Both the position numbers and the translations under genes were made by a program. This document shows positions 31,923 to 49,319 of a DNA stretch of 54,391 nt, piece by piece. Position 1 is the first letter of the stretch. Each line of letters begins with the position of its first letter. This DNA is from Bacillota bacterium (GTDB lineage: Bacteria; Bacillota; SHA-98; UBA4971): the NCBI GenBank assembly GCA_029551185.1, contig JAKPFY010000239.1, forward strand, positions 1 to 54,391, read 5' to 3'. The notes below the pieces were generated by a model that saw only the letters and a program-made list of their open reading frames with translations, did no database searches and was not told the DNA's origin.

Positions 31923-31998
31923 GGGTCATTAGCTCAGGCGGTAGAGCACCGGACTTTTAATCCGGGTGTCGTGGGTTCGAGTCCCGCATGACCCACCA
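31923..31998 (+). tRNA. tRNA-Lys (anticodon UUU)
   Basis: A 76-nt gene with encoded CCA. The acceptor GGGTCAT (31923-31929) pairs with ATGACCC (31988-31994); the anticodon arm CCGGA-CTTTTAA-TCCGG shows anticodon TTT; the T arm is GTGGG-TTCGAGT-CCCGC. All arms pair properly and the invariant bases are present. It forms the left boundary of the island and shares a 24-nt identical block (31960-31983) with 48117-48140. Confidence 0.97.
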
Positions 31999-32070: not shown

Positions 32071-32100
32071 ACCTAATTCAAAGCTGATAGATCCGCCTCG

Positions 32101-32239
32101 ACAAGATCCGCCACAGCGCCGGTATTGAACCACTTCAGCGCTCTATTTTGACATTTCAAAGGCTCGCACATGTCCTTGCTTGGCGTTTAATCCTCCACAG
32201 CAGCCAAATGCGCAAAAACACCTCTCCGGTTGCGGAAGT
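32101..32239 (+). repeat. 140-bp direct repeat, copy 1
   Basis: Nearly identical to 33589-33730; copy 2 is three bases longer through two small insertions, with few substitutions. No protein in it is recognised. Its right end lies 20 bases from the truncated phosphotransferase fragment. Confidence 0.93.
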
Positions 32240-32477: not shown

Positions 32478-32502
32478 ACGGAAGAGTTATGGTCTCTTCC
32501 GT
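32478..32502 (-). terminator. Intrinsic terminator of hicAB
   Basis: ACGGAAGAG (32478-32486) and CTCTTCCGT (32494-32502) form a 9-bp stem that overlaps the hicB stop; on the minus strand it is followed by a T-rich run (CTCTTTTCC, then GGTTTTTC). Confidence 0.7.
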
Positions 32503-32897
32503 ATGCCTAATTGTTCTTTCAGTGCGGATTGAAGTACTTGTGAAAAGTTAATGTTTTTTTCGATTGCAAGCTTATTAAGCCATTGAGGGATTGAAAGAGT
32601 TTTCTTTACCGAATAGTTTTCAATAGCTTCTCTCATTGTAGGCATATACACCTCAATTAGTACAACAGCCTGGTTAGAGTCAAGGCGTATTTTGCTGATT
32701 GGGGTTGGTTCAGGAATTTCATCATTATCTTCTTCCATACTATAAAGGTGAAGGCTAAGTGCATCGTTAGCCATTTTGATTGCTTCTTGGTCTGAGTTTG
32801 CGCAAGAGAAACATCCAGGCAAGTCCGGGAAAGAAATAGAAATACCATCATCAGAATAATCGAATATTGCTGGATAAATATAACAATCTTTTTTCAC
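32487..32897 (-). CDS. hicB: HicB-family antitoxin
   Basis: An antitoxin of about 136 aa. The N-terminal half is the partially degraded RNase-H-like HicB fold (YPAIFDYSDDGISISFPDLPGCFSCANSDQEAIKMANDAL, a very recognisable pattern). The C-terminal half (SVKKTLSIPQWLNKLAIEKNINFSQVLQSALKEQLG) is a ribbon-helix-helix or HTH-type DNA-binding segment. A TTG at 32906 abuts the SD, so GTG at 32897, nine bases after GAGGAG, is the better start. HicB neutralises HicA and represses the hicAB promoter. The gene follows hicA by 28 bases and looks fully intact. Confidence 0.9.
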   Translation of the reverse strand: MKKDCYIYPAIFDYSDDGISISFPDLPGCFSCANSDQEAIKMANDALSLHLYSMEEDNDEIPEPTPISKIRLDSNQAVVLIEVYMPTMREAIENYSVKKTLSIPQWLNKLAIEKNINFSQVLQSALKEQLGIRKRP

Positions 32898-32925
32898 TCG
32901 TATCAACTCCTCTTTGAGCTCTTAT

Positions 32926-33529: not shown

Positions 33530-33588
33530 GTAGGAAATGAGAGAAAAACAGCGTAATACTACGCCACTCAAATTCCACGGGAGATAGG

Positions 33589-33730
33589 ACAAGATCCGCC
33601 ACAGCGCCGGTATTGAACCACTTCAGCGCTCTATTTTGACATTTCAAAGGCTCGCGCACATGTCCTTGCTTGGCGTCTAATCCTCCACAGCAGCCAAATG
33701 CGCAACAAACACCTCTCCGGTTGCGGAAGT
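33589..33730 (+). repeat. 140-bp direct repeat, copy 2
   Basis: Second copy of 32101-32239, same orientation, 1.49 kb downstream. The two copies bracket the phosphotransferase remnant, hicAB and the transposase remnant. Confidence 0.93.
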
Positions 33731-33796: not shown

Positions 33797-34546
33797 CTAG
33801 TCCTTCTTAAGAATCAACAAGTCACCGTCTAACCCCTGATGAGCAACTTGAACATGCGCGAGCTCTTCAATAACGTTAGGTGGAACCCATGCTAACGTGA
33901 ATGGAAACAGGGCAGGGGATTGTAGTAAGTCATTGAGTAAAGATCTACCGTCCGGGTTTGCGTGTAGCAAGGCCTCGACAAGCCAGGCGATGAGCTCCGG
34001 GTTATCTATATGTCGGCTTATTCCAGGTTTATAGACCTGTGCCTTTGCTTCCTTCTCCAATACACCCCAGTTGACGAATGAGTACATAACACGTTGGGCA
34101 GCCCGAATCACCGTTTCTCGTTCACCGTATTTCTCTCGGACTCTGCGTTGAACTTGAGATGATGTCACAGAATCCTGCAAACGTAGGAGCCTTCCGATAT
34201 TGTCTGCAACAGCTTTCAGAAATGGATATGCTGCCATTGACATTCCCCAGTGAATGGGTACATGCTCTTCAATAGGCAGCAGTCGAATCATCTCAAGCCC
34301 TCTGGCACGGAGGGATTCAAGTTCCGGCACACCGTCAAACCATACTCTCATGAGTATGGTGATAGTCTTATCCCTGGCATTTCTCTTTGCAGTGCTTCCT
34401 ACAGCCAATTGATCGCTGAGGAATTCATCGAGCGCTGTGTAGACACCCTGCCGACTGTTCCCTGCTAATATCAAGTTAACAGTATATTCAAGCCATTCAA
34501 GGAGTATTTGTCTGTCAAATCCAATCTGTGTAAAACGGTTGGTCAC
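33797..34546 (-). CDS. brxA: BrxA-like protein, type 3 BREX
   Basis: The last gene of the BREX operon, 249 aa, mostly alpha-helical with no enzyme motif. I assign it as BrxA (DUF1819-like) mainly because type 3 BREX operons end pglZ-brxA and size and position agree; a central helical region (RVREKYGERETVIRAAQRVM followed by YSFVNWGVLE) suits the winged-helix DNA-binding fold of BrxA. GTG at 34546 follows AAGGAGGACACC and overlaps the pglZ stop by four bases, so translation is coupled. Sequence-only evidence is moderate; context evidence is strong. Confidence 0.75.
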   Translation of the reverse strand: MTNRFTQIGFDRQILLEWLEYTVNLILAGNSRQGVYTALDEFLSDQLAVGSTAKRNARDKTITILMRVWFDGVPELESLRARGLEMIRLLPIEEHVPIHWGMSMAAYPFLKAVADNIGRLLRLQDSVTSSQVQRRVREKYGERETVIRAAQRVMYSFVNWGVLEKEAKAQVYKPGISRHIDNPELIAWLVEALLHANPDGRSLLNDLLQSPALFPFTLAWVPPNVIEELAHVQVAHQGLDGDLLILKKD

Positions 34547-36549
34547 GGTGTCCTCCTTTGTATGTGGATAAGCGGCACAATTACTTCCTCAAGAGATATT
34601 CCTCCATGAGTCACAATCCTTGCGCCTTCCCCGACAAAAGCAGTGCGGTCGGGCGCAATCAGAGGCAGGAAATCATCAGGTAATCCTACAGAAGGCCATT
34701 CTATAGAGTCTGGGAAAGAGGCTTTTACCTTCTTGCGCAGGAGTTCGTCGGAGAAGATTCTCACGCGCTCGCCTCGTACTTCTGCTACAGCGCCTTCTTT
34801 AGGACTACCACAGCCATAAGCTTCTATGTTTCCGTGGTCGCTGGTGAGAGTAATGTCAAATCCGGAGTCCAGGAGAATGTTCAATAGGCGGGACAGATAT
34901 CCCTGTTTTGCCCAGTCACGCACCTGACTAAGCATGCCTGAGGCCCCAAGCTCCATTCCATGCATGATTTTGTCAACCTTGTTAATGACCAAACCCATTA
35001 CCTGAATTGATGGATTAGAAGCTGCATCGCATACTTCTTCTAGATCGCCATCGCCGAGACCTCTTAAGTATGCGATTTCTCTCTCTCTTAGCTTCTGATC
35101 CATCCAGAATTGTGTCCAGAGAGAGGCATCCTTGTCTGTCTTTGTGATGCTGTCGGGGAAGTAAAACGGTGGTTTTCCGGAAAAAAGCGCTTGTCTGGAT
35201 ACTGATGTGATTGTAGGTAACCAGGCAAAAACCGCGTCTTCCTGAAATCTGAGCATTGGTTGCTGGTCTTGCAGGACATCGCGAATAGCAAGCCACTGAT
35301 TTAGGGCTAAACCGTCTATGACAACAAGGGCAATTTTACCATTACCGGTATTGCCCTTCTGCCGCGCCAGAGCGCGTGGTACATGATGGAGCATGACAGG
35401 GGGTAGGGGAGGTTGATTGTGTAAGCCTATGTAACGATTCTCTATCCAGGTAAGGAACTCAGAGTCAAGCTGTCGGCTAAGGTCGCTAAACCGGTCCTGG
35501 TCCTCCGGTTTCAATATGTTTTGGAGTTCTAACTTCAAACGTGAAAGCTCAGCCCAGCGGTATGCAAAAGCAAGCCAATCTTGATGTCTCGAGCGAGAAG
35601 ACGGAAGTGATTCCGCAACTAACCTAGCGAGGCCGTCCAGTCTACGTAACAGATCCAGCTCGGGGTCGGTCTTTATCCCAACTGTGACCCATGTCCCTGA
35701 CAGGAGCTGAGACTCATGATGAGCTACAGGTTGTAGTAGGCCGTCAAGAAACAGGCTGTCTATATAGACCCGAACATCATCATGGTCAAACGGTAGAGAA
35801 GTCGGCCCGTTGAACTCAAGCTTGGTAGAGGTCTGGCCATTATGCGCCATGAACCCCTGTTCCATTGCGAGCCGGTTTAGAAACACCGGCCACCGTTCTT
35901 GTAGAAATCTAAAGAACGACTGTCTGTTGCTGACTATCTCCTCGAGCGGCCAGTCTAGGAATAAGCCCTGATTCCACAGGGAGTGAATGAAATAATCGTC
36001 GAGCACCTCCGGCACTTTAACGTTCTTGTAATGGCGACTCAGCAAAACCCGGAGAAGATCAGACGGCTGATGGATAAGTTCTGTCACAGTCCCGAACACG
36101 TGTCGAAGGGCAAAATCCTTAGTGGCGTTGTCTCCTAATACACCGGGAGCGTATTCCTGTTGAGCTTTATATAAAGTATCAAGATGGCTTTTGTCGAGTG
36201 AAGCAATGACAGGATAGCTCAAGTTCGGAAACAGCTTGCCCAGATCAAATGAGAGCTTCTGTCCTATCTGAAGCAGATCATAGGGGAGCGCACTCAGTTC
36301 ACGGGATTCGCAACGCACAACCAGTGCCTGGTGACATTCCTCGCGATCTTCGCATTGTGAACGGTACTTAGACTCATAGAGATATCGAAACGCAATAGGA
36401 TCATCAAACGACAGAATGTCAAACCCTTTGTCGCGTATCCCTTGGAGTAATTGCTCTTCTAAGAGGAGACCGTCAGGATCAGCTACGAGGACAAGTCGGG
36501 ATACCTGCGGCATGAATTTGCTTAGCAATTGGGCGCGCCAATCAGTCAT
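34543..36549 (-). CDS. pglZ: PglZ alkaline-phosphatase-superfamily protein, type 3 BREX
   Basis: PglZ is the signature protein of BREX, shared by all types. About 668 aa. The C-terminal half has the alkaline-phosphatase-like core: GKIALVVIDGLALNQWLAIRD (first metal-binding aspartate), WLPTITSVSRQALFSGKPP (nucleophile region) and LTSDHGNIEAYG (DHG metal ligands), ending in IVTHGGISLEEVIVPLI, also typical. The N-terminal half is a helical PglZ-specific region. The ATG at 36549 follows AGGTG and overlaps the end of the helicase gene by eight bases (ATGACTGA). It likely acts in a membrane-independent complex with BrxC and the methyltransferase; its chemical reaction is not settled. Confidence 0.92.
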   Translation of the reverse strand: MTDWRAQLLSKFMPQVSRLVLVADPDGLLLEEQLLQGIRDKGFDILSFDDPIAFRYLYESKYRSQCEDREECHQALVVRCESRELSALPYDLLQIGQKLSFDLGKLFPNLSYPVIASLDKSHLDTLYKAQQEYAPGVLGDNATKDFALRHVFGTVTELIHQPSDLLRVLLSRHYKNVKVPEVLDDYFIHSLWNQGLFLDWPLEEIVSNRQSFFRFLQERWPVFLNRLAMEQGFMAHNGQTSTKLEFNGPTSLPFDHDDVRVYIDSLFLDGLLQPVAHHESQLLSGTWVTVGIKTDPELDLLRRLDGLARLVAESLPSSRSRHQDWLAFAYRWAELSRLKLELQNILKPEDQDRFSDLSRQLDSEFLTWIENRYIGLHNQPPLPPVMLHHVPRALARQKGNTGNGKIALVVIDGLALNQWLAIRDVLQDQQPMLRFQEDAVFAWLPTITSVSRQALFSGKPPFYFPDSITKTDKDASLWTQFWMDQKLREREIAYLRGLGDGDLEEVCDAASNPSIQVMGLVINKVDKIMHGMELGASGMLSQVRDWAKQGYLSRLLNILLDSGFDITLTSDHGNIEAYGCGSPKEGAVAEVRGERVRIFSDELLRKKVKASFPDSIEWPSVGLPDDFLPLIAPDRTAFVGEGARIVTHGGISLEEVIVPLIHIQRRTP

Positions 36550-39343
36550 GAGAAGCACCTACTTCAATGCGGACTATTACAAGAGGTATCACATCAGGGC
36601 TGATTTGAGCTTTTTGCTCCATCATCTTTTCCCACTCTTGTTTCTCTTGTTCAAGCTGTCTCAGTCTGTAGTTTCTTACTGTAGGCAGCCCGATTCTTTC
36701 GATAGCTCGACGGCGTGCATTAAAAGAATACGCACCTTTTTCACGTTCTTTGCTAATGCGATCTTGGTGCACTCCCAAAAGTTCATCATAGGTAGTTCTT
36801 CCGTATGTTTTAACTGCTTCCATCAGACGTTGAAATACTAGATTAGAGTCTTGCTTGATGTGGCCTTTGACTTTGATGGATTCAGAAAGGAGTTCATCCC
36901 ATATCCGCCCGGCTGTCGGTATTAGAATTCTTCCATCATCATGCAGAAACAGGGGAATGATTCTCTTACGATTCCAGTCATCTGCCTGAACTGAGATTTC
37001 CCAGAGGGACCAGAATCCGCGTACACCTTGCGGAATATTCGGCAACTCTATGACGGGAATAGGCTGTCCTAGCGCAAAACGAGGAAGACGCATAACTAGG
37101 TTGCGAATGTTAGGGTTCTGCAATGTCAGATGTTGCGCTGTTGGGTTGATTTCAGCTTCCTTACGTGTGAAGACTGCATCTATGGTTTCGGAGCTATCAG
37201 GCCAACGAAGATTCCATCCATCAATACGCTTTTCTGCTTGACCTCCATAGGCTTGGACAAAACTTGTGGTCATACGCTCAACCCAATATGGGAAGGGATG
37301 GGAGATAAGCCTCTCGGCGTCGTCAGGCGTCAGATCTTCTGTTGAGCCCAATACTGATATGCTTTCCTTTGTTTGCCTTACTTGAGTTTCAATACGGATG
37401 ACTGCATTGGCAATGGATGTCTCCACGTCTTCCGGGTTCAGAATGGCGTCCACATACAAATCTTCAAAGATACCTGCCGCTTCCGCAGAATCAAGGACAT
37501 CACCTGTTTTGTCCACTCCGAATTCATTGAAAATCACAGTAAGTTTCTCTTCCAAAACTTCAAGAACGCGATGGTCCACTGAATCTTCTAAGACTAAATT
37601 GATGGCACGTACCACCTTGTCCTGCCCGATTCGATCCACACGTCCGATACGTTGCTCAAGACGCATAGGGTTCCACGGAATATCGTAGTTTATTACTACA
37701 TGACAGAACTGTAAGTTAAGGCCTTCTCCACCTGCATCAGTGGAAATGAGGATTCTGGCGCGGTCAGCGAATATCTGCTGAACCTGCTCTCGTTCCTGCA
37801 TATTCATTGAGCCGTTGAGGCAGACTGTATGAAACCCCCGGCTAGTAAGAAACTCATATAGCATTTCTTGAGTGGCCATAAACTCAGTAAAAATCAATAT
37901 CTTTAGGTTTGGGTCTCTCTCTTCCTGCTGCAGGCGGTATATCCAGTCCATAAGTGCTTCTGCCTTAACATCAGGTCCGGCCTCATCGCATTCTTTAGCA
38001 AACTCAAGTAACTGCCGTACCTCAGCATGTTCATTCTTGATCGCTTGAAGCTTATGCTTGGTGAGAATGTCCAGTTGCTCCTGGCCGTCAAGCTCAACCC
38101 AGTCTTCTTCAGGGAAACCGTCGAAGAGAGAGAGCTGTCCTTCGGGGCTTTCCAATGCTTCCAGTCGGCGCTCAAGGGTAACCCTTACGGCTCTGGTGCT
38201 TGAGGTAACCAATCTTTGCATAAGGAGCATGAGGAAGCCTATGTAGTTTCGTTTCTCGCGCATTGCTTGGTTATAACCTTCGCGAACATACTCTGTGACT
38301 GCATGGTATAGAATGCGCTGCATTCTGTGCCTCTCATCCCAGGCTATGGCTTCCAGTTGAGTTCTTCGTGGCTTGAAAAGAGGCCTCCCGTCTGCGCATA
38401 TAGCTTGCCTCTTTTCCGTGCGGATGATGTAGGGCTTGACGCGGTCTCTCGTAATGCTTTCGATGTCCGGGAAAGCGTCCGGATCGAGCAATGAAATCAG
38501 CCGATGGAAGGAATCGGTCTTACCTTGATGAGGTGTTGCAGAAAGAAGGAGCAAATATGGCGCAGCTTCAGCAAGAGCCAAGCCCAGCTTATGTCTTGCA
38601 ACTTGGTCAGTGCTTCCACCCAGACGATGGGCTTCATCCACAATAATTAGGTCCCAGCCTGCTGAGATGAGATCTTCAAATCTCTCTTTGTTGTATTCAG
38701 CTACCTGGTTGCGTGACCACCCCTTGCGTCCTTCAAGGGGTTTCACCGAGTCTATAGGGCAGACGATCTGAGGGAAGCGTTGCCATATGTTTTCGTCTTG
38801 GATTATTTGGCGATATGCAGAGAAATCGCCTGGGATTAGAAGCCTGAAGTCTTCGTTGAAGTGGGTGCGCATCTCCGCTACCCACTGGGTAACCAAGCCT
38901 CTCGGAGCAACTACGAGTGTACGCGCGACTTGGCCGCGAAGTTTTAGTTCCCGCATTATCAGCCCGGCTTCAATGGTCTTTCCTAAGCCTACTTCATCTG
39001 CAAGCAAGTAACGGACTCGATCATTAGCTACAGCACGTGATAATGCCTGGATCTGATGCGGAAGGGGAATGACTGATGATTCAATGGGAGCAAGGAGAAC
39101 ATCATGGGTGAGTGCATCAGCAACCCGGGCGGCCGCTGCAACATATGCGATGTGAGCAGGTGTTGCCATGTTTGTCTCATCCACAGGTTTGAGTTCATCT
39201 TGACGAACACGAACTACCTCGTTCTGATTTGGCAGCCAGACTCGGTAGATGATATCTCCCCAAAGATTTTGAGTCTCTATAATCTTACATACTTGTTGGT
39301 ATTTACTGCAGTAAACCCAAGTTCCAGTGTCAAGTCCCTTCAT
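36542..39343 (-). CDS. brxHII: BrxHII, SNF2/RapA-type helicase of type 3 BREX
   Basis: A 933-aa SF2 ATPase. Motif I is LLADEVGLGKTIEAGLIM, motif II IIVDEAHRLGG, motif III LLLSATPHQGKTD, and the C-terminal motor domain has ILIFTEFMATQEML and STDAGGEGLNLQFCHVVINYDIPWNPMRLEQRIGRVDRIGQ. This is the SNF2-like arrangement also found in RapA and in DrmD of DISARM. Its place between the methyltransferase and pglZ identifies it as BrxHII of BREX type 3. About 300 C-terminal residues form a helical extension without a recognised catalytic motif. Ten bases after pglXI, overlapping pglZ. Confidence 0.9.
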   Translation of the reverse strand: MKGLDTGTWVYCSKYQQVCKIIETQNLWGDIIYRVWLPNQNEVVRVRQDELKPVDETNMATPAHIAYVAAAARVADALTHDVLLAPIESSVIPLPHQIQALSRAVANDRVRYLLADEVGLGKTIEAGLIMRELKLRGQVARTLVVAPRGLVTQWVAEMRTHFNEDFRLLIPGDFSAYRQIIQDENIWQRFPQIVCPIDSVKPLEGRKGWSRNQVAEYNKERFEDLISAGWDLIIVDEAHRLGGSTDQVARHKLGLALAEAAPYLLLLSATPHQGKTDSFHRLISLLDPDAFPDIESITRDRVKPYIIRTEKRQAICADGRPLFKPRRTQLEAIAWDERHRMQRILYHAVTEYVREGYNQAMREKRNYIGFLMLLMQRLVTSSTRAVRVTLERRLEALESPEGQLSLFDGFPEEDWVELDGQEQLDILTKHKLQAIKNEHAEVRQLLEFAKECDEAGPDVKAEALMDWIYRLQQEERDPNLKILIFTEFMATQEMLYEFLTSRGFHTVCLNGSMNMQEREQVQQIFADRARILISTDAGGEGLNLQFCHVVINYDIPWNPMRLEQRIGRVDRIGQDKVVRAINLVLEDSVDHRVLEVLEEKLTVIFNEFGVDKTGDVLDSAEAAGIFEDLYVDAILNPEDVETSIANAVIRIETQVRQTKESISVLGSTEDLTPDDAERLISHPFPYWVERMTTSFVQAYGGQAEKRIDGWNLRWPDSSETIDAVFTRKEAEINPTAQHLTLQNPNIRNLVMRLPRFALGQPIPVIELPNIPQGVRGFWSLWEISVQADDWNRKRIIPLFLHDDGRILIPTAGRIWDELLSESIKVKGHIKQDSNLVFQRLMEAVKTYGRTTYDELLGVHQDRISKEREKGAYSFNARRRAIERIGLPTVRNYRLRQLEQEKQEWEKMMEQKAQISPDVIPLVIVRIEVGASHD

Positions 39344-39352
39344 TTGATATTA

Positions 39353-42160
39353 TCAGCCTTCTGTCCTGGTTAATGCTTGGTCATACCACATGAGTAACTT
39401 TGGATCTTCCTGAAGAACCGTGACAGGAATCTTCTTCGCGACATCAAGTATTGTCTGGTAGTCCCGCTCTATCCAGGCCTTCTTAAATCCGGCACGAACA
39501 GCCTCCAGCCTGAAGACTTTCAGGCGTTTCTGTGTTGAAGCTCGATACTCTTCAAATTCCTTCAGCAGTGCTTTTTCGCGAAGTTTCTCAAGGTCTCCTG
39601 CCTTATTAGGATCAGGTACGTACCAGCGGTCCTTCGCCTTAGCCTGCAAAGCCGGGTCGTCTTTAGATAAGTTCCGTAGGTCCTTGAAGTTACTGGAAAG
39701 GTAGCTATGGATCTGACTGGGAACTTCGCCGGTCCCGTCATAGCGCAAGAAATTCTGCTGCAGTAGTTCTAACAGTTCCAGTGGTTCTTCGTGCTTCTGC
39801 CACCCGACAATCTCCTTCATAAACTGTGGGTGAAGCTCTTGGAAGGTTTGAGGCTTAAAAGCAAGCTGTTGTTTAAGCCATTGAATGGCTGAAGCTTCAT
39901 CTAGGACGAATAGCTCCAGTTGCTGGATGTCTTTAACCCTCATACGTTTTTTATCGTACTCAGCAACCTGATCCGGCAAAAAGTACATCCCGTCGCGTTC
40001 CGGAAAACGTTGACCCAGACCTTGATAGAACTCTGCTGCAGATAGAGGTACTGTTACTCCACGTTGTACGTGGAATGCAACCATGCGGTCGTAGAGAAGG
40101 TAATTCTGTCTCTCAGCTATGACTTCAACCTTACCATCTTTAGTCACGAAAACAGGAAGCTGCTTGAGGTGAGTGCGGACAAAGTCCCATGCGCCGTCTT
40201 CCGTGCCTGCTTGAAGTTTGAAGCGTTCTTCCAAGCCACTGTTAGGCTTGTATGCAGAGATAATAAGATCCTGCTTGACGGCACTGCTGCTTGTAATCTG
40301 CTTAAACGTTCCTTGTTGTTTATCAAGAGTACGAACATCTGCAACGACAAAACCAACACGCTGTAAGGCTTCTTGTATCGCATTCCACACGCTGTTTTTA
40401 GAGTTGTGAAATTCCACAGTCATCCATCTGCCAGGTTTGAGGACTCTGTAGTATTCCTCAAAGCAGCGTGTCATTAAGTGCTGGTATTCTGCAAGTCCTT
40501 TCCCTTGAGCTTTGTTTTCAATCACTTCTGGTTCATTGTTCGTGAAGACCTTTAGCCACGATTCCCACAGGAAATTTAACTCTGAATACATTAGGTTACC
40601 TCCGAAGGGAGGATCAGTAAAGATGTAGTCTGAGTACTGGGCAGGCAAAAAAGCGTGTGAAGTGCTTTGCGTCCCAATAAAGAATCTTTCGCTTGCCTGA
40701 TACATGTTAAGCATGGCAATTAGGCGTTTCAATCTGTTATTGAACGCATACCTAAATGAAACCTCTGAGTGCTGTGAACTGATGTAAAGGGTGCCACTGA
40801 GATTTCTGTTGTTCTGAGAGAAATGGTGTGGTGCATAGCGATTGAGGCGCGATAACCCTATTAATCCCTGATCAAACAAGAAACGACAGAAACTCTTGAT
40901 TTCTATCTCTGGTATTGCTGCTGTCTCCTCGAATAGTGTACTTAATAGCCACAGGCTCCTCTTCGTATAGAAATGATGCACATGAGTCATGCCTATGTCG
41001 TCGTTGCGTCTTGACTCTTCGCCTTCGGGCATCCGATCTGTCGGAAACCAATACGGAATATCACCATCCTCAATCTTTTGAATGAGCGCAAGATCAAAAG
41101 CATCTGGTGCCTTTTCAAGCCGTTTCCTGCCTACACTATAATTGATGAGTACAGGAACCTGCTTCGCTTGCCTTACAGTCTGGTTAATTGCTTTGTCATA
41201 CTTAGTAACCCATGCGCGGTCCATATTGCGTTTCGTGAGGCTGGCATTGCAGTGCGGACAAGGAAACTCGCGGTGTACCTTGCCCGCCTCCTTGTCCACT
41301 GCCACATCCCAAAACACCACTTCCTCAGAACACTCGGGGCACACAAACACATCAGACCATACGGTATAATTGATCCTTCCCTTGGTCTTTCCGTCGGTGT
41401 GCAGAGTTTCATACATCCATCCGCATTCTTTCTCTACTTCTGAAAGGATTCGCTTGGCCTCTTTCTCAAATTCCTTTACATCCACAGGTGTATTGTAGTT
41501 GTATGCAATAAACGTTGCAGCAGGGGAAAGATCATTCAATATGGCTCGCCTTACACCTAGCCTAGAAAATAGCTGCCAGACAGTCTTTCCGTCTGAATCT
41601 GTTTCTTTCTGATAAATGGTACCATCTTGATCCACTCTATAACCTAGAGACTCAACTGTAGCACGGTCTCCACATAGCTGTGCTGCGACTCCTGTCATCC
41701 CGGTTCCGCAGAATCCATCGAAAACGATATCCCCGGGTTCGGTATAGTGTAATATGTATCGCATAATTGCCTTATGAGGCACCTTGGTATGATAGGAGTG
41801 AGCGTTGTATATGGGATCATTCTTGCCTTCACTCACATCTGCAGCAAACGGCTTCTTGTCGTAATGTTCGTTGGGATTATAAGGTTTCCCGTAATGCTCT
41901 ATGAAATCTTCGATAAACGGATTAGGACATGCGGTATAGTACGGCGGATCTGACAATGCAAGAATGTCTTCATCTAGACCTATTGGAAACCCTTCGATTT
42001 TTCTAAACTCAGGGTCCTTAAGCTTCTCAGCGAGCTTCTGCAGAAAGTACTCCCTTCGTGCCTCATCGCTTTCGAAGGTCATTCCCAGGCATTCAACCGG
42101 ACCACTGGTTTTCGCTACTCTATTCTCTTCAAGAAATGACATCTGTTTGGAAGCACACAA
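39353..42160 (-). CDS. pglXI: PglXI, DNA methyltransferase of type 3 BREX
   Basis: A 935-aa adenine-type methyltransferase. An N-terminal motif IV-like LALSDPPYYTACPNPF (about 68-83) precedes motif I IVFDGFCGTGMTGVAAQLCG (about 145-164), a circularly permuted order. A treble-clef zinc region with CPEC and CPHC lies around 270-310, and a second DPP motif (TDPPFGGNLMYSELNFLWESW) lies in the middle of the protein. In BREX the methyltransferase marks host DNA at a non-palindromic site as self. Start TTG at 42160, with AGGAGA eight bases upstream; 12 bases after brxC. Target sequence cannot be read from the gene. Confidence 0.9.
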   Translation of the reverse strand: MCASKQMSFLEENRVAKTSGPVECLGMTFESDEARREYFLQKLAEKLKDPEFRKIEGFPIGLDEDILALSDPPYYTACPNPFIEDFIEHYGKPYNPNEHYDKKPFAADVSEGKNDPIYNAHSYHTKVPHKAIMRYILHYTEPGDIVFDGFCGTGMTGVAAQLCGDRATVESLGYRVDQDGTIYQKETDSDGKTVWQLFSRLGVRRAILNDLSPAATFIAYNYNTPVDVKEFEKEAKRILSEVEKECGWMYETLHTDGKTKGRINYTVWSDVFVCPECSEEVVFWDVAVDKEAGKVHREFPCPHCNASLTKRNMDRAWVTKYDKAINQTVRQAKQVPVLINYSVGRKRLEKAPDAFDLALIQKIEDGDIPYWFPTDRMPEGEESRRNDDIGMTHVHHFYTKRSLWLLSTLFEETAAIPEIEIKSFCRFLFDQGLIGLSRLNRYAPHHFSQNNRNLSGTLYISSQHSEVSFRYAFNNRLKRLIAMLNMYQASERFFIGTQSTSHAFLPAQYSDYIFTDPPFGGNLMYSELNFLWESWLKVFTNNEPEVIENKAQGKGLAEYQHLMTRCFEEYYRVLKPGRWMTVEFHNSKNSVWNAIQEALQRVGFVVADVRTLDKQQGTFKQITSSSAVKQDLIISAYKPNSGLEERFKLQAGTEDGAWDFVRTHLKQLPVFVTKDGKVEVIAERQNYLLYDRMVAFHVQRGVTVPLSAAEFYQGLGQRFPERDGMYFLPDQVAEYDKKRMRVKDIQQLELFVLDEASAIQWLKQQLAFKPQTFQELHPQFMKEIVGWQKHEEPLELLELLQQNFLRYDGTGEVPSQIHSYLSSNFKDLRNLSKDDPALQAKAKDRWYVPDPNKAGDLEKLREKALLKEFEEYRASTQKRLKVFRLEAVRAGFKKAWIERDYQTILDVAKKIPVTVLQEDPKLLMWYDQALTRTEG

Positions 42161-42172
42161 TACACATCTCTC

Positions 42173-45100
42173 CTATTCCAGCATGATACGAATTTTGCCG
42201 GCTTCTCTACCTTTTATTAACCCGGTTAGATATTCATCAAAGCGTTTCCTTAGCTCATTAGGCGTGGAAGGGGTACCGCCTACAGATAATGCATTCCACA
42301 GATCTTCGGTCTTGATGGTGACCTTAACTAAGCCGGAGAATACCTCTTGTAGCGCATTGACGAAATTCTGTCCAACCTCATCAGGGAGTCTTCGGTCTTT
42401 GAGGAAGTCGTTTATTAGGACTCGGTCATCACGTTTGAGTAGTTCGAGGTTTTCATGAATAGTAGGATCTTCGAGATTTTCCAGCAAGATTTTGGTCCAG
42501 GAGGTTACGAGGGAATCCAATTCATTTTCTAGATGGTCCAGTAGCATATCTGCACTGGCCTTCGACGATTCTGCGCCAGGCTTGTACTCACAATGCGGGC
42601 ATTTAGGCGATACATCTAGATCGGATTTGGTAAGGGCAAAGCAGGTTCTTAGCTCTCCAAGTCGGTTCTGGAAATCAATGAGCTGTTGATGAGGCATTAT
42701 GTTGACAGTAGACAGTTTTTGTAAGATATTAAGCCGTTCATCTTGCACTAGAGCACTCTTACGTTTATCGTCACTAATGCCGAGCCTTGCCCGCTCATGA
42801 AGTCTCAGGTAAACATCAATATATGACTGCTTCAGATCACTCAGTTGACGAAAGACCCTACGATGAAAATCAGTCTTCTGTGTTTTGCTTCTGTCAGAGA
42901 GCTCACTGACTATCTTATTCCTAACTTCCTTCATATTCACTATCCAATTATGGTCTGCGGGCAGTACTGCTTCTGCAGTAGAAAGATAGGATGCAGTAGG
43001 TTCCAACTCTGTAAGCATGTCATGTAATGCTTCGATATCTTTAAGACTCTGTAAGCCGACGTGATGGCTCTTTACATCATCTACATCGTAGCGGAAGTTC
43101 TTGAACTTGCCAGGAGTTGAATACACCTGTAAAGACTCAAGAAAATCTTTTAAGCTCTCCAGCTCTGAACGCAAGATTGCGGTTTCTTCTTCGCCCAGCA
43201 AGTTACGGCCCCAGAACATCATGCCACTCTGTATGTATTGTTGTGCACGAATCAGTCGCTCGATGGTTTGAGCAATCGTTTTCAAAAGCTCTTTTACAGG
43301 TTCGTCTTTGCCCTGTGTAATTAGTTGTGCCATGCCCGGAGTCAAACCTAATAATTCAAAGAGTGCTTTCATGGCAGGGATGTTCCAGTCTTTAGGCCGT
43401 TCCAGATGCTTAAATTCAACCAGATGATCGATGGGAGTCGCAGCCAAAGCGGGCAAGTCAATTGCATCAAACTTTCTCCCGGGAATAGCCAGGACCACGT
43501 GGCCTGAGTAGACTAACGCAGCAAGGATTACTACTACCCATTCAGGTTCCAGCCTGAAAGTTGTTGGGGCTAGGTATTCAACACCAACAACATCCTCAAT
43601 CAACTCAGAACGGTTGACAACTTTGCCTTGTCCCTTATCGTTCAGAATGTTTAAGATGTACTTGGCGTATCTGGACTTAGTCGGATCAAGTCGATCTCCG
43701 TCAAGCAGTTCAAGCGCATCAAGGACTGCTGTAGCTTGCTTTGTTTGGGATTGTCCTGCGATTGTGCGAAGTGCGTCCTGTGCAGCCAGAGAACGATTCT
43801 TACCTGTTATCTGTACTGAGAAGAACGGGTGCTCAGGTGCTTGATCTTGAAAGTAGGTTGCCAGACATCCTGAGCTGACTGCGTTGACAATGTCACGGAC
43901 ATTGATATTTTCACTTTCGCTTGGGGTGATCTTGCCTTTCATCCAGTCAATCAGGTTCTTTGTTTTCCCCTGATAAGTAACTTCGAAGCCTGTGGTTATG
44001 TGTTCTTGTAACCATTTGACAAGTTGGCGTAGGAATTCCTCGGCTTTAGACTCATAGACTGCTTTTGCGCGTCCTGAGGAAGTAGATGAAAGATCTTGAG
44101 CAGCAGCGTAGTTCTGTAGAATTTTGTCAAAGTCAGCGTCAGTGCTTCGGAGATGGAAGAACACCTCATCAGCTTTTTTCTCATCCTTATAGTATGGTGG
44201 TTCGTTAGGTTGAATGAAGTAAATGTAAAAGTCTCGGGGTGGTACAGCAGTCGAGCGTTCATTTGGGGCGCCAAAGAATAGATAGCCTGTCCGTGCTGCT
44301 TTGCGCTCACGCCACTCTAACTCGTGCTCCCAGATATTATAACCGGTGACATAGGTCTTATCTGTACACTCCATGACACGCTTGAGCGCTTCATAGTAAT
44401 AAAAGTCCAGTTGTGCCTTATCGAGACTTTCAGCACGATCTTCTATGATTGCATCGTAGTCTTCAGTTTTCTTTAGATCCAGATAATATTGCCTGTTATC
44501 CGGATTGGAAGATATGAACTGTCCACTCACAGTCTTATGAATCTCCCGCAAGACAGTCTCTACCTGACCGAGAAGGTCAGTAGCGGGTTCGCCGCCTAGA
44601 TCCTCAATGCCCGGTTGATAGAGACAGAGACTGTCTCTTAGCTCCTCAGGTGTTGCTCCGAGGTTTGAGTAGATATCTCCGGTAGTGAGACGGTGCACTG
44701 ACAAGCCGTGAATTAGCCGAAGAGCCATAGGTTTATACATGGGACGGGGGAAAGCGTGCTCGATACGGGATTCAAGAACTTGACTGCAGTCGATGACTGC
44801 TCGAATATCAGGCTGAGTCCTGAAAACGGCGTTGTCTCTGAGAAATGGCCAATAACTATCGTAAGCAATGAGGCCGGGATAATCCTTTGGGACTTCCTCA
44901 TCCACCAGTTTTCTCATGGAAAGTGAAAGAGTCTTAAGCACTTCTCGCTTTTCAGCAACTGTGATTCTCTCGAACGTATCAATGTAATCCGGGTGCACAG
45001 GGAAAAGCCGGACATACTCATCCATTCGCTCATTCATGTTCCCGTAGAACTTGGCAAAGGGCATTAGGTACTCTTTGATTCGAGCTTGTTGTTCATTCGT

Positions 45101-45886
45101 TTTCTTCAAGAGACGTTCGCTGACGACATATTTCACATCTTGCCTAACGATGAGTACTTGCTCAAAGCGATCTTTCACTCTACGAATCATTTCTGCCACG
45201 AATGAGAATCTAGGGCTATCAAAGATTGCTTCCTGTATACCTGCGATAAAGCGGAATCGTAGGTCTTTGCAAACTTCACCAATTTGCCGTAAGAAGTTAA
45301 GGTCAAGGATGATTTGTTTGTCATCTCGCGAACGGAGATATTCAAGTAATTCGTCGATCACCAGTAACAACCCATGATCAGGGTACTTGTGGTGAAACTC
45401 TGTCATCATCTCCTCAAATACCGGCTTGTCATCGGGGACTTCATCGGATCTTGGGAAAAGAAAGTCCACACCCAACTTTTGAAGATTATCTTCAAGTGTG
45501 AGGAAGACGATATCTCGTAGAGACATGGTTGTCGCACCTATTTCAGCGCGAATCACCTTGAACTTGCCGGCAATCTTAGTTGAGGCCTTCATGACTGCGT
45601 CATTGTTAAGCTTGGATATCAGCTCGGGATATTCAGCAATTGCAGAGATAACTGACATCAAATGGGACTTACCTGTTCCATAGTTGCCCACTATCAGTAG
45701 CCCTTTGCTATCCATAGGCTCACTGAATTGGAGATTTGGAATTACAATGTCTGTCAGTTTCTCTGCCATTTCGTTGGAGATAACGTACGTTCGGACTAAT
45801 TGCTCGGCAATTGTTAGTTTGTCCGCATGCCGAAGCTGAATCACTGTCTCAATCGGGTCAAACTGGACAAGGTCACCGTACTTCAT
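42173..45886 (-). CDS. brxC: BrxC/PglY ATPase, type 3 BREX
   Basis: A 1237-aa AAA-like ATPase. Walker [21 protein letters not shown] (about residue 63-82), Walker [20 protein letters not shown] (about 170-188), then a long helical body and a zinc-finger-like pair (CPHCE, with an upstream KCP) near residue 1130. Size and Walker context match BrxC/PglY, the large motor-like component present in all BREX types. The ATG at 45886 overlaps the brxF stop by four bases, so the two ATPases are translated together. Confidence 0.9.
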
Positions 45887-46395
45887 GTCCGATACTCCTT
45901 TACAGCGTTGTCGAGACCTTGGGTAGTCGCTGTCAAATCTATTATTAAGAAGTCTTGTATCCGGTACCTGCGGTACTCAGGATGCCTAGACTCTGCGTAC
46001 GTCAAGTAACCGTTCTCCACTAAACCATTCCAGGCAGCAACGACAGTATGATTTCGAGAGAGCTTTGTGAGGAGTTGTAATGGGTCTTGCTTAAGTGTTA
46101 CGTCGAATAGAATTTCTAAGTTATCCAGTAGGATTATCTCGTTTGCTGTGTGGTTTGTAAGTTCGTCCAAAAGCCTGAAGACGCACAGAATTCTTTGCCT
46201 TTCTGTCAGATCAAGCATTCGCTTGGAAAGCTCCAGATTAACATTAATCAGGGGAGTGCCTGTGCGTGCTTCTATCTCTTGTAATACCGTGGTCTTACCT
46301 GAGCCTTCAGGCCCTACGATAAGTACCAGTCGGTAGTGAAGCCCTGACGCTTGTTTGAGCTTTTGAAATACCTCGCCAGTGGGACTTCTTGACAT
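45883..46395 (-). CDS. brxF: BrxF, small P-loop ATPase of type 3 BREX
   Basis: A 170-aa P-loop protein: Walker [20 protein letters not shown] and Walker [15 protein letters not shown]. BrxF is found in type 3 BREX and its presence as first gene decides the type. The ATG at 46395 has GGAGGAG seven to nine bases upstream. It is the promoter-proximal gene; I could not find a strong promoter in the 780-base gap upstream. Confidence 0.88.
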
Positions 46396-47179
46396 GATTG
46401 CTCCTCCTGTTTATTACATGCATCCGATGGATTCAGTAAGCCACAGGTTTAGATTGGAGATTCTATAGTTCATCTAGAGTGCGTTAAGTGAACTGTGATG
46501 CTATGGGAGAGTTACTGTATGTATGCTCCGAAGGTTAGTGTGACGAATATTTGCTGATTGTATGTAATATAGTAACCGGCTTACTGAACTCTTCTCGGGA
46601 AATCGGTATACAATGGGTAACCAGCGCTGTGTACTAGCGCTTCATGATTAATCCCTCGTTGTAGTGAAGCGCTTGCATCATCCCGAGAATGCAGAACAGA
46701 ACCGCCTTCATACGTCTATTGGACTAATAGTATTGTACCAGTTAATGAGTAATATGGGAAGGTATATCATATTCTGTCAGATATTGCAGCTGTGTTTATT
46801 TGGCCAAAAACACAGCTTTAATCAACTACCTTCTTGCTTCTGTTTGGGGCTTCAAGGAAAATAAAAGCGAGAAGAAGGCAGGGGTCAAAGGTAAAGCAGA
46901 TAGTAATGGACGAGGGTCTTGAAACACTGCTATGGTTTGACGCTAACTCTTGTGATATCCTAAAGGAACGGATCACGGCACTCAAAGACATTTTCCCGGA
47001 TAACGGAATCCTGAGGAGATAAACAGCGGACTCAAGCATTGCATAGGTGGATATGGGTATTCGCCGTTGTGGCTATAAAGACGTTCTTTTGACTCAGAAT
47101 CAGTTTTTCGATATCCTGCCGGTAGGCAGTCAACCGGGTCGGGTATGTCCTAGACTAGGATTGTGAGGGGAGATAGATA
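46396..47179. other. Divergent non-coding region between brxF and the SEC-C gene
   Basis: The longest gap in the window (784 bases), in the middle of the divergent defence region. It holds an inverted repeat (AGCGCTTCA 46636-46644 with TGAAGCGCT 46665-46673), the SEC-C promoter at 47089-47117, and a short plus-strand frame (46834-47022, 62 codons) that I cannot assign and that has no good ribosome site. No strong minus-strand promoter for BREX was recognised. Confidence 0.45.
47089..47117 (+). promoter_or_regulatory. Probable promoter of the SEC-C gene
   Basis: TTGACT (47089-47094), 17 bases, TATCCT (47112-47117), about 60 bases before the TTG start. Confidence 0.6.
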
Positions 47180-48148
47180 TTGAAAAAGATAGGAAGAAAT
47201 GAGCCCTGTCCATGCGGGAGCGGCAAAAAATACAAGAAATGTTGTTTGAATAACCCTAACCCCATATCTCTTTACTTGCAGAGCCTTTGGTCGTATGAAG
47301 AAGCAGACGAAATGAGCACTGACGAAATCATTCAACTGTTGGACGATTTCGGCATCCCGTTCGAAAAAGACACCTTCCTGCAAGACATTGAAGAATACTT
47401 CTTTGCTGAACAAATTTCGGAGAACTGGTTCAGGATCTTCGACGTAACCGCGAAAGGCAGGGACGAAGACTTTCCATGGCTGGCTGCATGGGTTTTGTGG
47501 GAAAGACTGGCACCGGCCCAAAATATGCCGGCGGAGAAAATGAATCGGTTGATTAATGAGGGCGATCAATATTCATTAGCCAATGATCCCATGAAAGCCT
47601 GCGACATCTGGTTGGAGGTTTGGAAAGCTATAAAGTACAAGTGCAAACCGGAATTCAAATACTTAAATGACCTTGATCAGCAGTATCGCACACTATTCTT
47701 CATCAGCAATTTATGCCAGGATCTAGAGCTTGAATTTCACAACGCAGGGCTGCGTGACAAGGCTTATTTTAAAAAACGGATTGACTATTGTAGGGAATTC
47801 TTGACCCTGTTCCCTGACGAGAAAGAGTTGATCACTCATAACATGAGACGCGCCATTGCAGACTCATATGCGAGTCTGGGTGATTATGAACAAGCTGAAT
47901 CGGAGTTTAAGAAGTTGGTGCAAACCTATCCGAATAGCCCATGGGGATACATTGCATGGGGGGATATCTACTTCTCTGATGAGAAAAATGATTACGACAA
48001 GGCGAAGGAGCTTTATGCAAAGGCTTTGGCTGTCGCGGAAGACAAATACGATATCATGACAGTAAATGAGAGGCTTAAAGACTTGGAAGAAAAGGTGAAA
48101 TATCAAGAAGCGTCCGATCCGGGTGTCGTGGGTTCGAGTCACGCATAA
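47180..48148 (+). CDS. SEC-C motif and TPR-containing protein at the island edge
   Basis: A 322-aa protein whose start is a complete SEC-C zinc motif ([15 protein letters not shown], residues 8-22), as found at the SecA tail and in many accessory-region proteins. The middle is acidic and helical; residues about 210-290 contain TPR-like helices ([44 protein letters not shown]). Start TTG at 47180 with GAGGGGAG eight bases upstream. Its last 10-11 codons, including the stop, lie inside the tRNA-Lys 3' fragment, so the present C-terminus ([11 protein letters not shown]) was probably created by integration. The function is unknown; a defence role is suggested only by its neighbours. Confidence 0.82.
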
Positions 48149-48154
48149 CCTGCC
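48117..48154 (+). repeat. tRNA-Lys 3'-end fragment, putative att site
   Basis: Bases 48117-48140 are identical to 31960-31983 of tRNA-Lys (anticodon-stem 3' strand, variable loop, most of the T arm). After that the match continues with four differences through the CCA at 48152-48154. No 5' half is present, so it cannot encode a tRNA. Same orientation as the intact gene, as expected for attL/attR. Confidence 0.9.
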
Positions 48155-48158
48155 ATTT

Positions 48159-48401
48159 CTATTTTGTATCTTCCACACATCTTTGTTTATCCTGAAGCTT
48201 CTCCAATAGGCTCCTTACACGCGTATCCGCAGCCTGTGTTTCTTGAGCGTCAACATCCATATGGATGGTAAGGATAGAGCCTTCCCTTACACCATGCGGT
48301 AGATAGCTCGAAGGCCAAGAGATTTCATGGATTTCATCGGGTCGAATGAGAAGCACTGCGAAATCGCCTTCAATACGGTCAAGAGTCACCTTCAACGTCA
48401 T
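48159..48401 (-). CDS. DUF3006 domain protein
   Basis: An 80-aa protein with the DUF3006 pattern (TLDRIEGDFAVLLIRPD, then PSSYLPHGVREGSILTI). This family is commonly encoded next to ComEC-like metallo-beta-lactamase proteins, as here, 30 bases downstream of one. Probably a small beta-barrel; function unknown. GGAGG lies ten bases before the ATG. Its stop is four bases from the island's tRNA fragment. Confidence 0.88.
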   Translation of the reverse strand: MTLKVTLDRIEGDFAVLLIRPDEIHEISWPSSYLPHGVREGSILTIHMDVDAQETQAADTRVRSLLEKLQDKQRCVEDTK

Positions 48402-48431
48402 GGAGATCCATCCTCCCGGTTAGTAGAGTCC

Positions 48432-49319
48432 CTATTTCTTCACTGTCCACGTCATACCGTCACTTTGTAGGACAATAGTACCATGGATATCAGTTCTCAG
48501 TATCTCAGCGCCGGCGTAAATCAAGGATTTGATAACCTCCTTATGTGGGTGTCCATATCTGTTACCTGCACCTACGCATATTACTGCAATCTTAGGCTTC
48601 ACTTCATTGAGGAAATCATCTGTTGAGGAAGTAATACTCCCATGATGCGCGATTTTTAAGACCTGGGCATTGGGAAGGCTTCCTCCCCTTATTAGTTCGT
48701 TTTCAACTATTGCTTCAACGTCACCGGCAAGCAATAACGCAGAGTTCCCAAACTCTACGCAAAGCACTACTGACGCGTCATTTACAGAAAGCTTCTCTAT
48801 GTGAAACGGATTCCCTGCATCCGTGTCAGGTGGCCAAAGAACCATGATTTTGACCGAATCATCAATGGGAATCTCATCCCCGGCTCTGGCAATATGAAAA
48901 GGAATATCCTTCTCATAAATAAGCGTTAAGTAGTCCTCGTAGGTCTTGGAAGAATGGGGCTTCGCTGAATCATACACTGAATCCACAGGAAGCTTTTCCA
49001 ACACTTTGATGAGACCGCCGATATGATCAGCATGAGGATGTGTGCTTACCATCACGTTGACCCGTTCGATGCCTTTTTCCCTGAGGGCTCGAACGACTTT
49101 ATCGCCTGCGCCACGTTCACCGCCATCCACTAACATCGTTTTGCCGGAGGGGGTCTCGATTAAAATAGAATCTCCCTGACCTACATCAATAAAGGTGACA
49201 GTCAGAAGATCCGCTCCCGACTCGGAAACCCGCATCTGGGTCAATCCGGAGCAACCTATAACTGCTACAAACAACGTGACTACCAGCCATAGCCACGCAA
49301 GTCTTCTTAGTTTCTTCAA
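48432..49319 (-). CDS. ComEC/Rec2-like metallo-beta-lactamase lipoprotein
   Basis: A 295-aa secreted metallohydrolase. The N-terminus (MKKLRRLAWLWLVVTLFVAV, then IGCSG) is a lipoprotein signal with lipobox cysteine 23. The rest matches the beta-lactamase domain of ComEC: TFIDVGQGDSILIETPSGKTMLVDGG, the metal motif STHPHADHIGGL, LLLAGDVEA and KIAHHGSITSS. It lacks ComEC's membrane channel, so it is one of the free-standing forms, possibly an extracellular nuclease or phosphodiesterase. TTG at 49319 after GAGGGGG. DUF3006 follows in the same operon. Confidence 0.9.
   Translation of the reverse strand: MKKLRRLAWLWLVVTLFVAVIGCSGLTQMRVSESGADLLTVTFIDVGQGDSILIETPSGKTMLVDGGERGAGDKVVRALREKGIERVNVMVSTHPHADHIGGLIKVLEKLPVDSVYDSAKPHSSKTYEDYLTLIYEKDIPFHIARAGDEIPIDDSVKIMVLWPPDTDAGNPFHIEKLSVNDASVVLCVEFGNSALLLAGDVEAIVENELIRGGSLPNAQVLKIAHHGSITSSTDDFLNEVKPKIAVICVGAGNRYGHPHKEVIKSLIYAGAEILRTDIHGTIVLQSDGMTWTVKK

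Follow-up and report, generated by a model that had tools for sequence, protein, structure and literature searches.

A SEC-C/TPR gene that ends in a partial tRNA-Lys copy at the edge of a BREX-carrying island, and its recurrent neighbour DUF6933-PRiA4_ORF3

The window that we have analysed, i.e. the whole 54,391-nucleotide stretch of DNA from a Bacillota bacterium, contains a gene for a SEC-C/TPR protein whose last codons and stop codon are made of tRNA sequence. The reading that we consider probable is that an island of ~16 kb has been inserted at the 3' end of a tRNA-Lys gene, that the tail of the SEC-C/TPR protein is a passive by-product of the junction, and that the recurrent neighbour of this gene is DUF6933-PRiA4_ORF3, not BREX. 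Seen as a whole, this is a common type of island junction with one instructive feature, next to a recurrent gene pairing: it exemplifies how an insertion at a tRNA gene can give a cargo gene its last codons and its stop, and annotators could take such an att-derived tail for a conserved C-terminus.

In the course of events that we propose, a ~16-kb piece of DNA with a BREX operon, toxin-antitoxin and transposase debris, and what is left of a gene pair (a decayed DUF6933-PRiA4_ORF3 gene and an intact SEC-C/TPR gene), would have been inserted at the 3' end of tRNA-Lys(TTT), leaving a 42-nt partial copy of the tRNA at the far edge; the SEC-C/TPR gene would read into this copy, its stop codon would be supplied by the acceptor stem of the tRNA in that frame, and its ten last residues would be an unstructured by-product standing in place of a naturally variable tail. 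The features on which this proposal is built are the following:

31923-31998, + strand: intact tRNA-Lys(TTT), found by ARAGORN, at the near edge of the island (attL side)
32487-32906, - strand: HicB-like antitoxin gene (PF15919, E 6e-15), at the left end of the island
33797-46395, - strand: BREX operon, in coordinate order BrxA, PglZ, BrxH, PglXI, BrxC, BrxF (PADLOC, Pfam)
46873-47039, + strand: degraded DUF6933-PRiA4_ORF3 remnant, found by tblastn, between brxF and the SEC-C/TPR gene
47180-48148, + strand: SEC-C/TPR protein gene, with a TTG start and 322 aa, encoding SEC-C and TPR domains
48116-48148, + strand: last 10 codons and TAA stop of this gene, located in the tRNA copy except for the first base
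48117-48158, + strand: 42-nt copy of the 3' half of tRNA-Lys plus 3 nt, marking the island's far edge (attR side)
48159-49319, - strand: chromosomal flank beyond the copy, with a DUF3006 gene (48159-48401) and a metallo-beta-lactamase-fold gene (48432-49319)

The junction at tRNA-Lys(TTT)

ARAGORN detects no tRNA in the window other than tRNA-Lys(TTT). The copy, which is recovered by a search of the whole genome (2.66 Mb) with E 1.7e-8, is 88% identical to the intact gene over 42 nt: the initial 24 nt are exact, the five mismatches all fall within the final 18 nt, and upstream of the copy the identity to tRNA-Lys breaks off at once. Across the 39 nt matched by the copy, the whole tRNA-Lys genes of the window and of five congeners have the same sequence, from which the copy departs at four positions within its tRNA part; the fifth mismatch, located after CCA, is a T that matches the flank of two congeners (G230 and G345), the corresponding position being a G in the left end of the island and also in a third congener, G154. 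The copy may be a displaced and decayed end of the chromosomal tRNA, or the element's own attP.

Our sample of the genus consists of seven genomes, each of which has at least a part of tRNA-Lys. In two congeners (G230:C13, locus L169, and G154:C60, locus L170), the intact tRNA-Lys joins straight to the DNA that is located beyond the copy in the window, and this DNA leads, as it does in the window, towards the DUF3006 and metallo-beta-lactamase-fold genes; the same junction occurs in G345 (locus L171), where the contig end falls inside the tRNA. From the collinear empty sites in the two congeners it follows that positions 48117-48158 are the far edge of an insertion of ~16 kb, which spans from about 31999 to about 48116; in the initial annotation, the SEC-C/TPR gene had been described as forming the far edge of the island, and the empty sites agree with this placement. 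The arrangement is that of an island at the 3' end of a tRNA, with the intact tRNA at one edge, the direct repeat at the other, and an empty site in relatives that is collinear across the repeat (L169, L170). The contig of G366 ends 5 nt past the tRNA, and the GTTAT found there equals the left end of the island, which is little evidence.

In G398 (G398:C110, L172:2016-5085), a different insertion of ~3 kb, without an att copy, is located between tRNA-Lys and the same flank; the site may therefore be an insertion hot spot.

No integrase or recombinase was recognised in the island, either among the ORFs tested by Pfam and PADLOC or in a six-frame reading of its ends, and we have therefore classed it as an island and not as a self-mobile element; for the same reason, it is from the att-like repeat and the tRNA location only that we infer site-specific recombination as the route of insertion. 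Among the integrative elements and prophages whose attB is the 3' half of a tRNA gene, a comparable target is used by the mycobacteriophage Boilgate, which integrates at tRNA-Lys-TTT, and for which a core of 43 bp shared by attP and the tRNA 3' half, with five single-nucleotide differences, is reported (PMC10865867); the island resembles it in its tRNA-Lys(TTT) target and in a shared stretch of 42 nt with five differences. The two cases differ in that the window has no recognised integrase or complete element, and in that here a cargo gene reaches into the core, and not an intergenic region beside int.

The SEC-C/TPR protein and its C-terminal tail

The SEC-C/TPR gene, whose TTG start is preceded by GGGGAG, ends at 48148 and not at 48154, the end first given for it. 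Its product is a SEC-C motif protein, with PF02810 at residues 6-23 (E 3.1e-10; 40.2 bits against a gathering score of 20.4), and shares the motif of the C-terminus of SecA; unlike in SecA, the motif is linked to a TPR-like, entirely helical domain of nearly 290 residues, to which Pfam and NCBIfam assign only generic TPR matches (at about residues 221-290) and a sub-threshold match to DUF7017. The PADLOC matches of the protein are only to the SEC-C motif in other models. Compared with the homologue at L196, the fractions of mismatches at the three codon positions are 0.23/0.19/0.48, and three other homologues give similar values, a pattern which indicates that the gene has been under coding constraint. 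The AlphaFold2 model (alignment of 33 sequences) has a mean pLDDT of 92. Solved structures found by sequence are SEC-C peptides, SecA, designed or generic TPR proteins and a weak oxygenase match, and those found by Foldseek are mostly TPR-containing, with a TM-score to the query of at most 0.38 among the 50 matches listed; neither the sequence search nor the listed Foldseek matches gave a functional hint. We regard a TPR scaffold with a SEC-C zinc knuckle as the most likely nature of the protein, both the zinc binding and the scaffold role being predictions.

Near-full-length homologues, seven in number and 44-63% identical, occur among 398 genomes of the phylum. The 99 homologue loci that we have compared consist of these seven, of distant relatives from the same search, and of the best 80 of 113 matches from named genome contigs; the removal of 7 duplicates leaves 92 loci, in 91 of which the match frame, when followed, reaches a stop before the contig end. 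By their record titles, loci L196-L275 come from Bacillota, Desulfobacterota-type bacteria, Chloroflexi and several archaea, including Lokiarchaeota and Methanoperedens, a scattered taxonomy that is as expected of horizontal spread; in the genus, a match to the family occurs in one of the seven genomes, the window's own, and the gene is horizontally acquired. Thirteen plasmid records match the protein, seven of them over at least 80% of the query and all seven haloarchaeal, and one Klebsiella pneumoniae plasmid covers 60% of the query at 45% identity; in viral and phage collections, the matches listed are mostly to the SEC-C motif region alone. At five loci (L185, L186, L187, L188 and L269), the SEC-C motif is C-terminal rather than N-terminal, so that its position relative to the TPR domain has shifted within the family.

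The tRNA copy starts at the second base of codon 313, the first base of this D codon being located outside it. The claim that the gene ends inside the 3' copy of tRNA-Lys has been borne out, and of the "last 10-11 codons" attributed to the copy, ten and the stop codon are indeed there, the S that precedes them being outside. Read in the same frame, the intact tRNA-Lys encodes PGVVGSSPA followed by a stop, so either parental sequence supplies a stop at this place; it is the sole one of the three sense frames that has a stop inside the tRNA.

Conservation among the closest homologues stops at about residue 308 (ERLxDLEE), and past this point they carry short tails of their own, e.g. EGVIRSQQLETSS and EHPTRPQPPEMPS, or almost none; four homologues (54-63% identity) stop soon after an ERLxx(L/I) segment, with unrelated tails. 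In the predicted fold (AlphaFold2), the last long helix spans residues 289-312 and is followed by a short helical turn at residues 314-316; the mean pLDDT is 63 at residues 311-320 and 45 at residues 321-322, with residues 318-322 below 50. Both the conserved region and the last long predicted helix are finished at or before residue 312. The earlier suggestion that the tail is formed of att-like DNA agrees with the empty sites of the congeners and with the homologues, which are without this tail. On the strength of the model and the comparison, the tail looks like a passive, probably unstructured by-product of the junction that has replaced a naturally variable tail.

Homologues away from any tRNA that end with the same peptide had been named in the initial annotation as the case that would speak against this origin; we have looked for them, and 0 of the 91 homologous frames, each followed to its stop, end in the tail peptide of the window. 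In the last 40 residues of the 91 frames, no three-residue word is shared with the tail, except for an internal VVG in L216. A conserved C-terminal peptide is thus ruled out, the homologues ending otherwise. In 1 of 91 homologues, a T-loop motif that finds the copy in the window occurs in the interval from -100 to +300 nt around the stop, where ~0.9 would be expected from the background of 48 in 5000 random 400-nt windows, a comparison of little power; the single case, L192, is a gene cut by foreign, probably transposon, sequence, and ARAGORN finds no tRNA there. According to ARAGORN, tRNAs are present in 6 of the 99 loci, and these loci give no sign of a tRNA association of the family.

The manner in which the gene acquired its tRNA end can be conceived in more than one way, and a fusion at integration and an earlier overlap with attP both predict nearly the same peptide. 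It is possible, though we would hold it only tentatively, that the element natively carries the 3' end of the SEC-C/TPR gene overlapping its attP, the tail and the stop codon being kept through excision and integration and possibly selected: if recombination were conservative, the circle would read the same peptide, save for H or P at the last-but-one residue, irrespective of the side of the crossover that contributed the core, and the frame in use is the one sense frame that stops inside the tRNA; against this stand the failure to find a second such element, the restriction of the family to one of the seven genus genomes, the lack of a homologue seen ending in a tRNA and of a recognised integrase in the island. 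A more doubtful route is a fusion after insertion, where a deletion or rearrangement at the right end would have taken the gene's own 3' end and joined the gene to an old attR remnant. The right end is indeed eroded, the partner gene being a remnant and the pieces at 46698-47181 matching separate contigs, but the copy begins right after the complete conserved domain with the frame intact, and a deletion at random would have had only a short tolerated interval in which to fall. Both of these are routes within the explanation that we favour, i.e. an insertion at the tRNA 3' end with a by-product tail; the native overlap would depart from it if the tail were functional.

The recurrent neighbour DUF6933-PRiA4_ORF3

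The DUF6933-PRiA4_ORF3 remnant next to the SEC-C/TPR gene is found by tblastn with 57% identity over 79 columns (E 9e-19), together with a further 12-residue piece (E 1.2); the tblastn alignment begins at 46768, the match at residue level reaches to 47039, and the similarity at the DNA level extends from 46873 to 47181, where the remnant is 82-90% identical to two pieces at contig C164 of the window's own genome (G000). An intact DUF6933-PRiA4_ORF3 gene is located on this same contig (L312:5203-6357).

At a contig end of the same genome (G000:C275, L313:1-1173), a broken partner gene is followed by a SEC-C/TPR fragment, forming a second pair in the genome. In the window, positions 46698-46876, adjoining the partner remnant, hold the end of a gene that is 84% identical to G230:C37, and the DNA upstream of brxF is a patchwork of ends of genes.

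A profile HMM built from six partner genes detects a partner within 1 kb of the SEC-C/TPR gene at 12 of 92 loci and at 8 of the 19 closest, or 9 of the 19 if a 43-residue partner remnant found by tblastn at L203 is counted; among the loci that have at least 1.5 kb on both sides, the frequency is 6/58. The HMM has no match at 11 of the 19 closest loci, some of which are cut by contig ends, and at several of the more remote loci it recognises no more than the PRiA4_ORF3 part. The control stretches come from 20 single-contig genomes of the phylum, where they were chosen by hand and not by a random generator; the partner HMM has a match in 0/20 of them. At L200 and L201, the partner frame begins about 10-25 nt after the SEC-C/TPR stop.

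The neighbouring ORFs lead to the same gene. The Pfam families most often seen in 138 ORFs from the 19 loci are DUF6933 (7) and PRiA4_ORF3 (6), all others occurring at most twice; these 138 are a part of 175 neighbour ORFs from 23 loci, the ORFs at L215-L218 and two that are truncated by contig ends having been left out, and two left-out ORFs (L213:1-468 and L216:565-1308) are partner-like. DUF6933 is present in 44 of the 398 phylum genomes, mostly without a near-full-length SEC-C/TPR homologue. The pairing of SEC-C/TPR with DUF6933-PRiA4_ORF3 is recurrent, but not obligatory. DUF6933-PRiA4_ORF3 proteins (PF22016 + PF07929) are a recurrent partner of the SEC-C/TPR family to which the window's gene belongs; in the window, the adjacent partner has decayed, only a remnant being left.

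The DUF6933 part matches the PADLOC candidate PDC-S63, and a defence role of the pairing is only a lead. In a small form of the comparison with control genes that the initial annotation had proposed, PADLOC assigns, at E <= 1e-15, matches from 70 families to the 138 neighbour ORFs, including, among the matches listed, Wadjet JetABC, AbiE, DpdF, SoFic, methyltransferases and PDC-S63; it assigns matches from 42 families to 135 control ORFs (a part of 167, from 16 of the 20 stretches), including, again among the matches listed, SNF2-type helicases (with the BrxH model) and RtcR. Since one protein may match many models, these family counts are not counts of systems, and 25 families are listed per set.

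We have found no paper on the pairing, and the literature searched for PRiA4_ORF3, DUF6933, PDC-S63 and SEC-C has nothing on these proteins among the matches listed. It is conceivable, although we regard it as unlikely, that the two genes form an undescribed mobile cassette located at the att edge, its stop codon coming from tRNA-Lys and the cassette staying intact through integration and excision; the match to PDC-S63 is the reason for considering phage defence as its possible function. If this were true, the arrangement at the att edge would keep the SEC-C/TPR gene intact through integration and excision. More generally, the recurrent pairing shifts the focus from BREX to DUF6933-PRiA4_ORF3, as a testable functional pairing for this bacterial and archaeal SEC-C/TPR family.

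The BREX operon and the left end of the island

All six adjacent BREX genes of the island are recognised by PADLOC, and their set and order (brxF, brxC, pglXI, brxH, pglZ, brxA) are those of what we take to be type III BREX. A link between these genes and the SEC-C/TPR gene, which the initial annotation had raised without being able to cite support for it, is not supported by other BREX loci of the genus: contig G345:C77 holds the BREX operon at another place, with 84-86% DNA identity, and G398:C69 holds the brxF end at a contig edge, with 83% identity and a shared upstream region to about 46800, and neither of the two BREX stretches has a match to SEC-C/TPR. The comparison in the other direction has the same outcome, as BrxC, PglZ, BrxA and BrxF have no tblastn match in the 99 homologue loci (7 duplicates included, many with short flanks), in a search with the window's BREX proteins that would miss very different BREX types. 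PglX has one weak match in these loci, and BrxH has helicase-type matches in 7 of 99, the best being that of L189 (32% over 564 columns), a BrxH-like helicase located about 2 kb from its distant SEC-C/TPR homologue. A PglZ domain is present somewhere in 96 of the 398 phylum genomes; of the 7 near-full-length carriers, 3 have one, located on other contigs than the homologue. The recurrent presence in BREX operons that is expected of a BREX component was not found.

With the two congeneric BREX loci lacking the gene and no BrxC, PglZ, BrxA or BrxF match in the homologue loci, a BREX role is not supported, and we consider it very improbable that the SEC-C/TPR protein is an accessory component of BREX. 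What speaks for it, apart from the helicase of L189, is that the gene is located divergently beside brxF in this one island, that one of the two congeneric loci is a brxF end only, and that G398 has pieces of the usual neighbour, DUF6933-PRiA4_ORF3, at 4-6 kb beyond brxF (L315:5073-6748), split by a transposase-like gene. BREX and the same mobile debris thus keep company in the genus, which is partly against the absence of a link.

On the same contig of G398 (C69, L315:5073-9477), short pieces that are shared with both ends of the window's island are found beside brxF.

That the junction is an assembly chimera formed at a repeated tRNA sequence of a metagenome assembly is hardly credible. In favour of it, the assembly of the source organism is in 318 contigs and 81% complete, and tRNA-Lys is where contigs of two congeners stop; against it, 5 of the 42 positions differ between the two copies, exact identity being limited to 24 nt, and on either side the outer flank has the order seen in the congeners.

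At the left end of the island, two direct repeats of ~120 nt (32100-32218 and 33588-33708), 96-99% identical and 1.49 kb apart, frame the HicB gene and two remnants, presumably HicA-like and transposase-like; a related piece is located at G000:C308.
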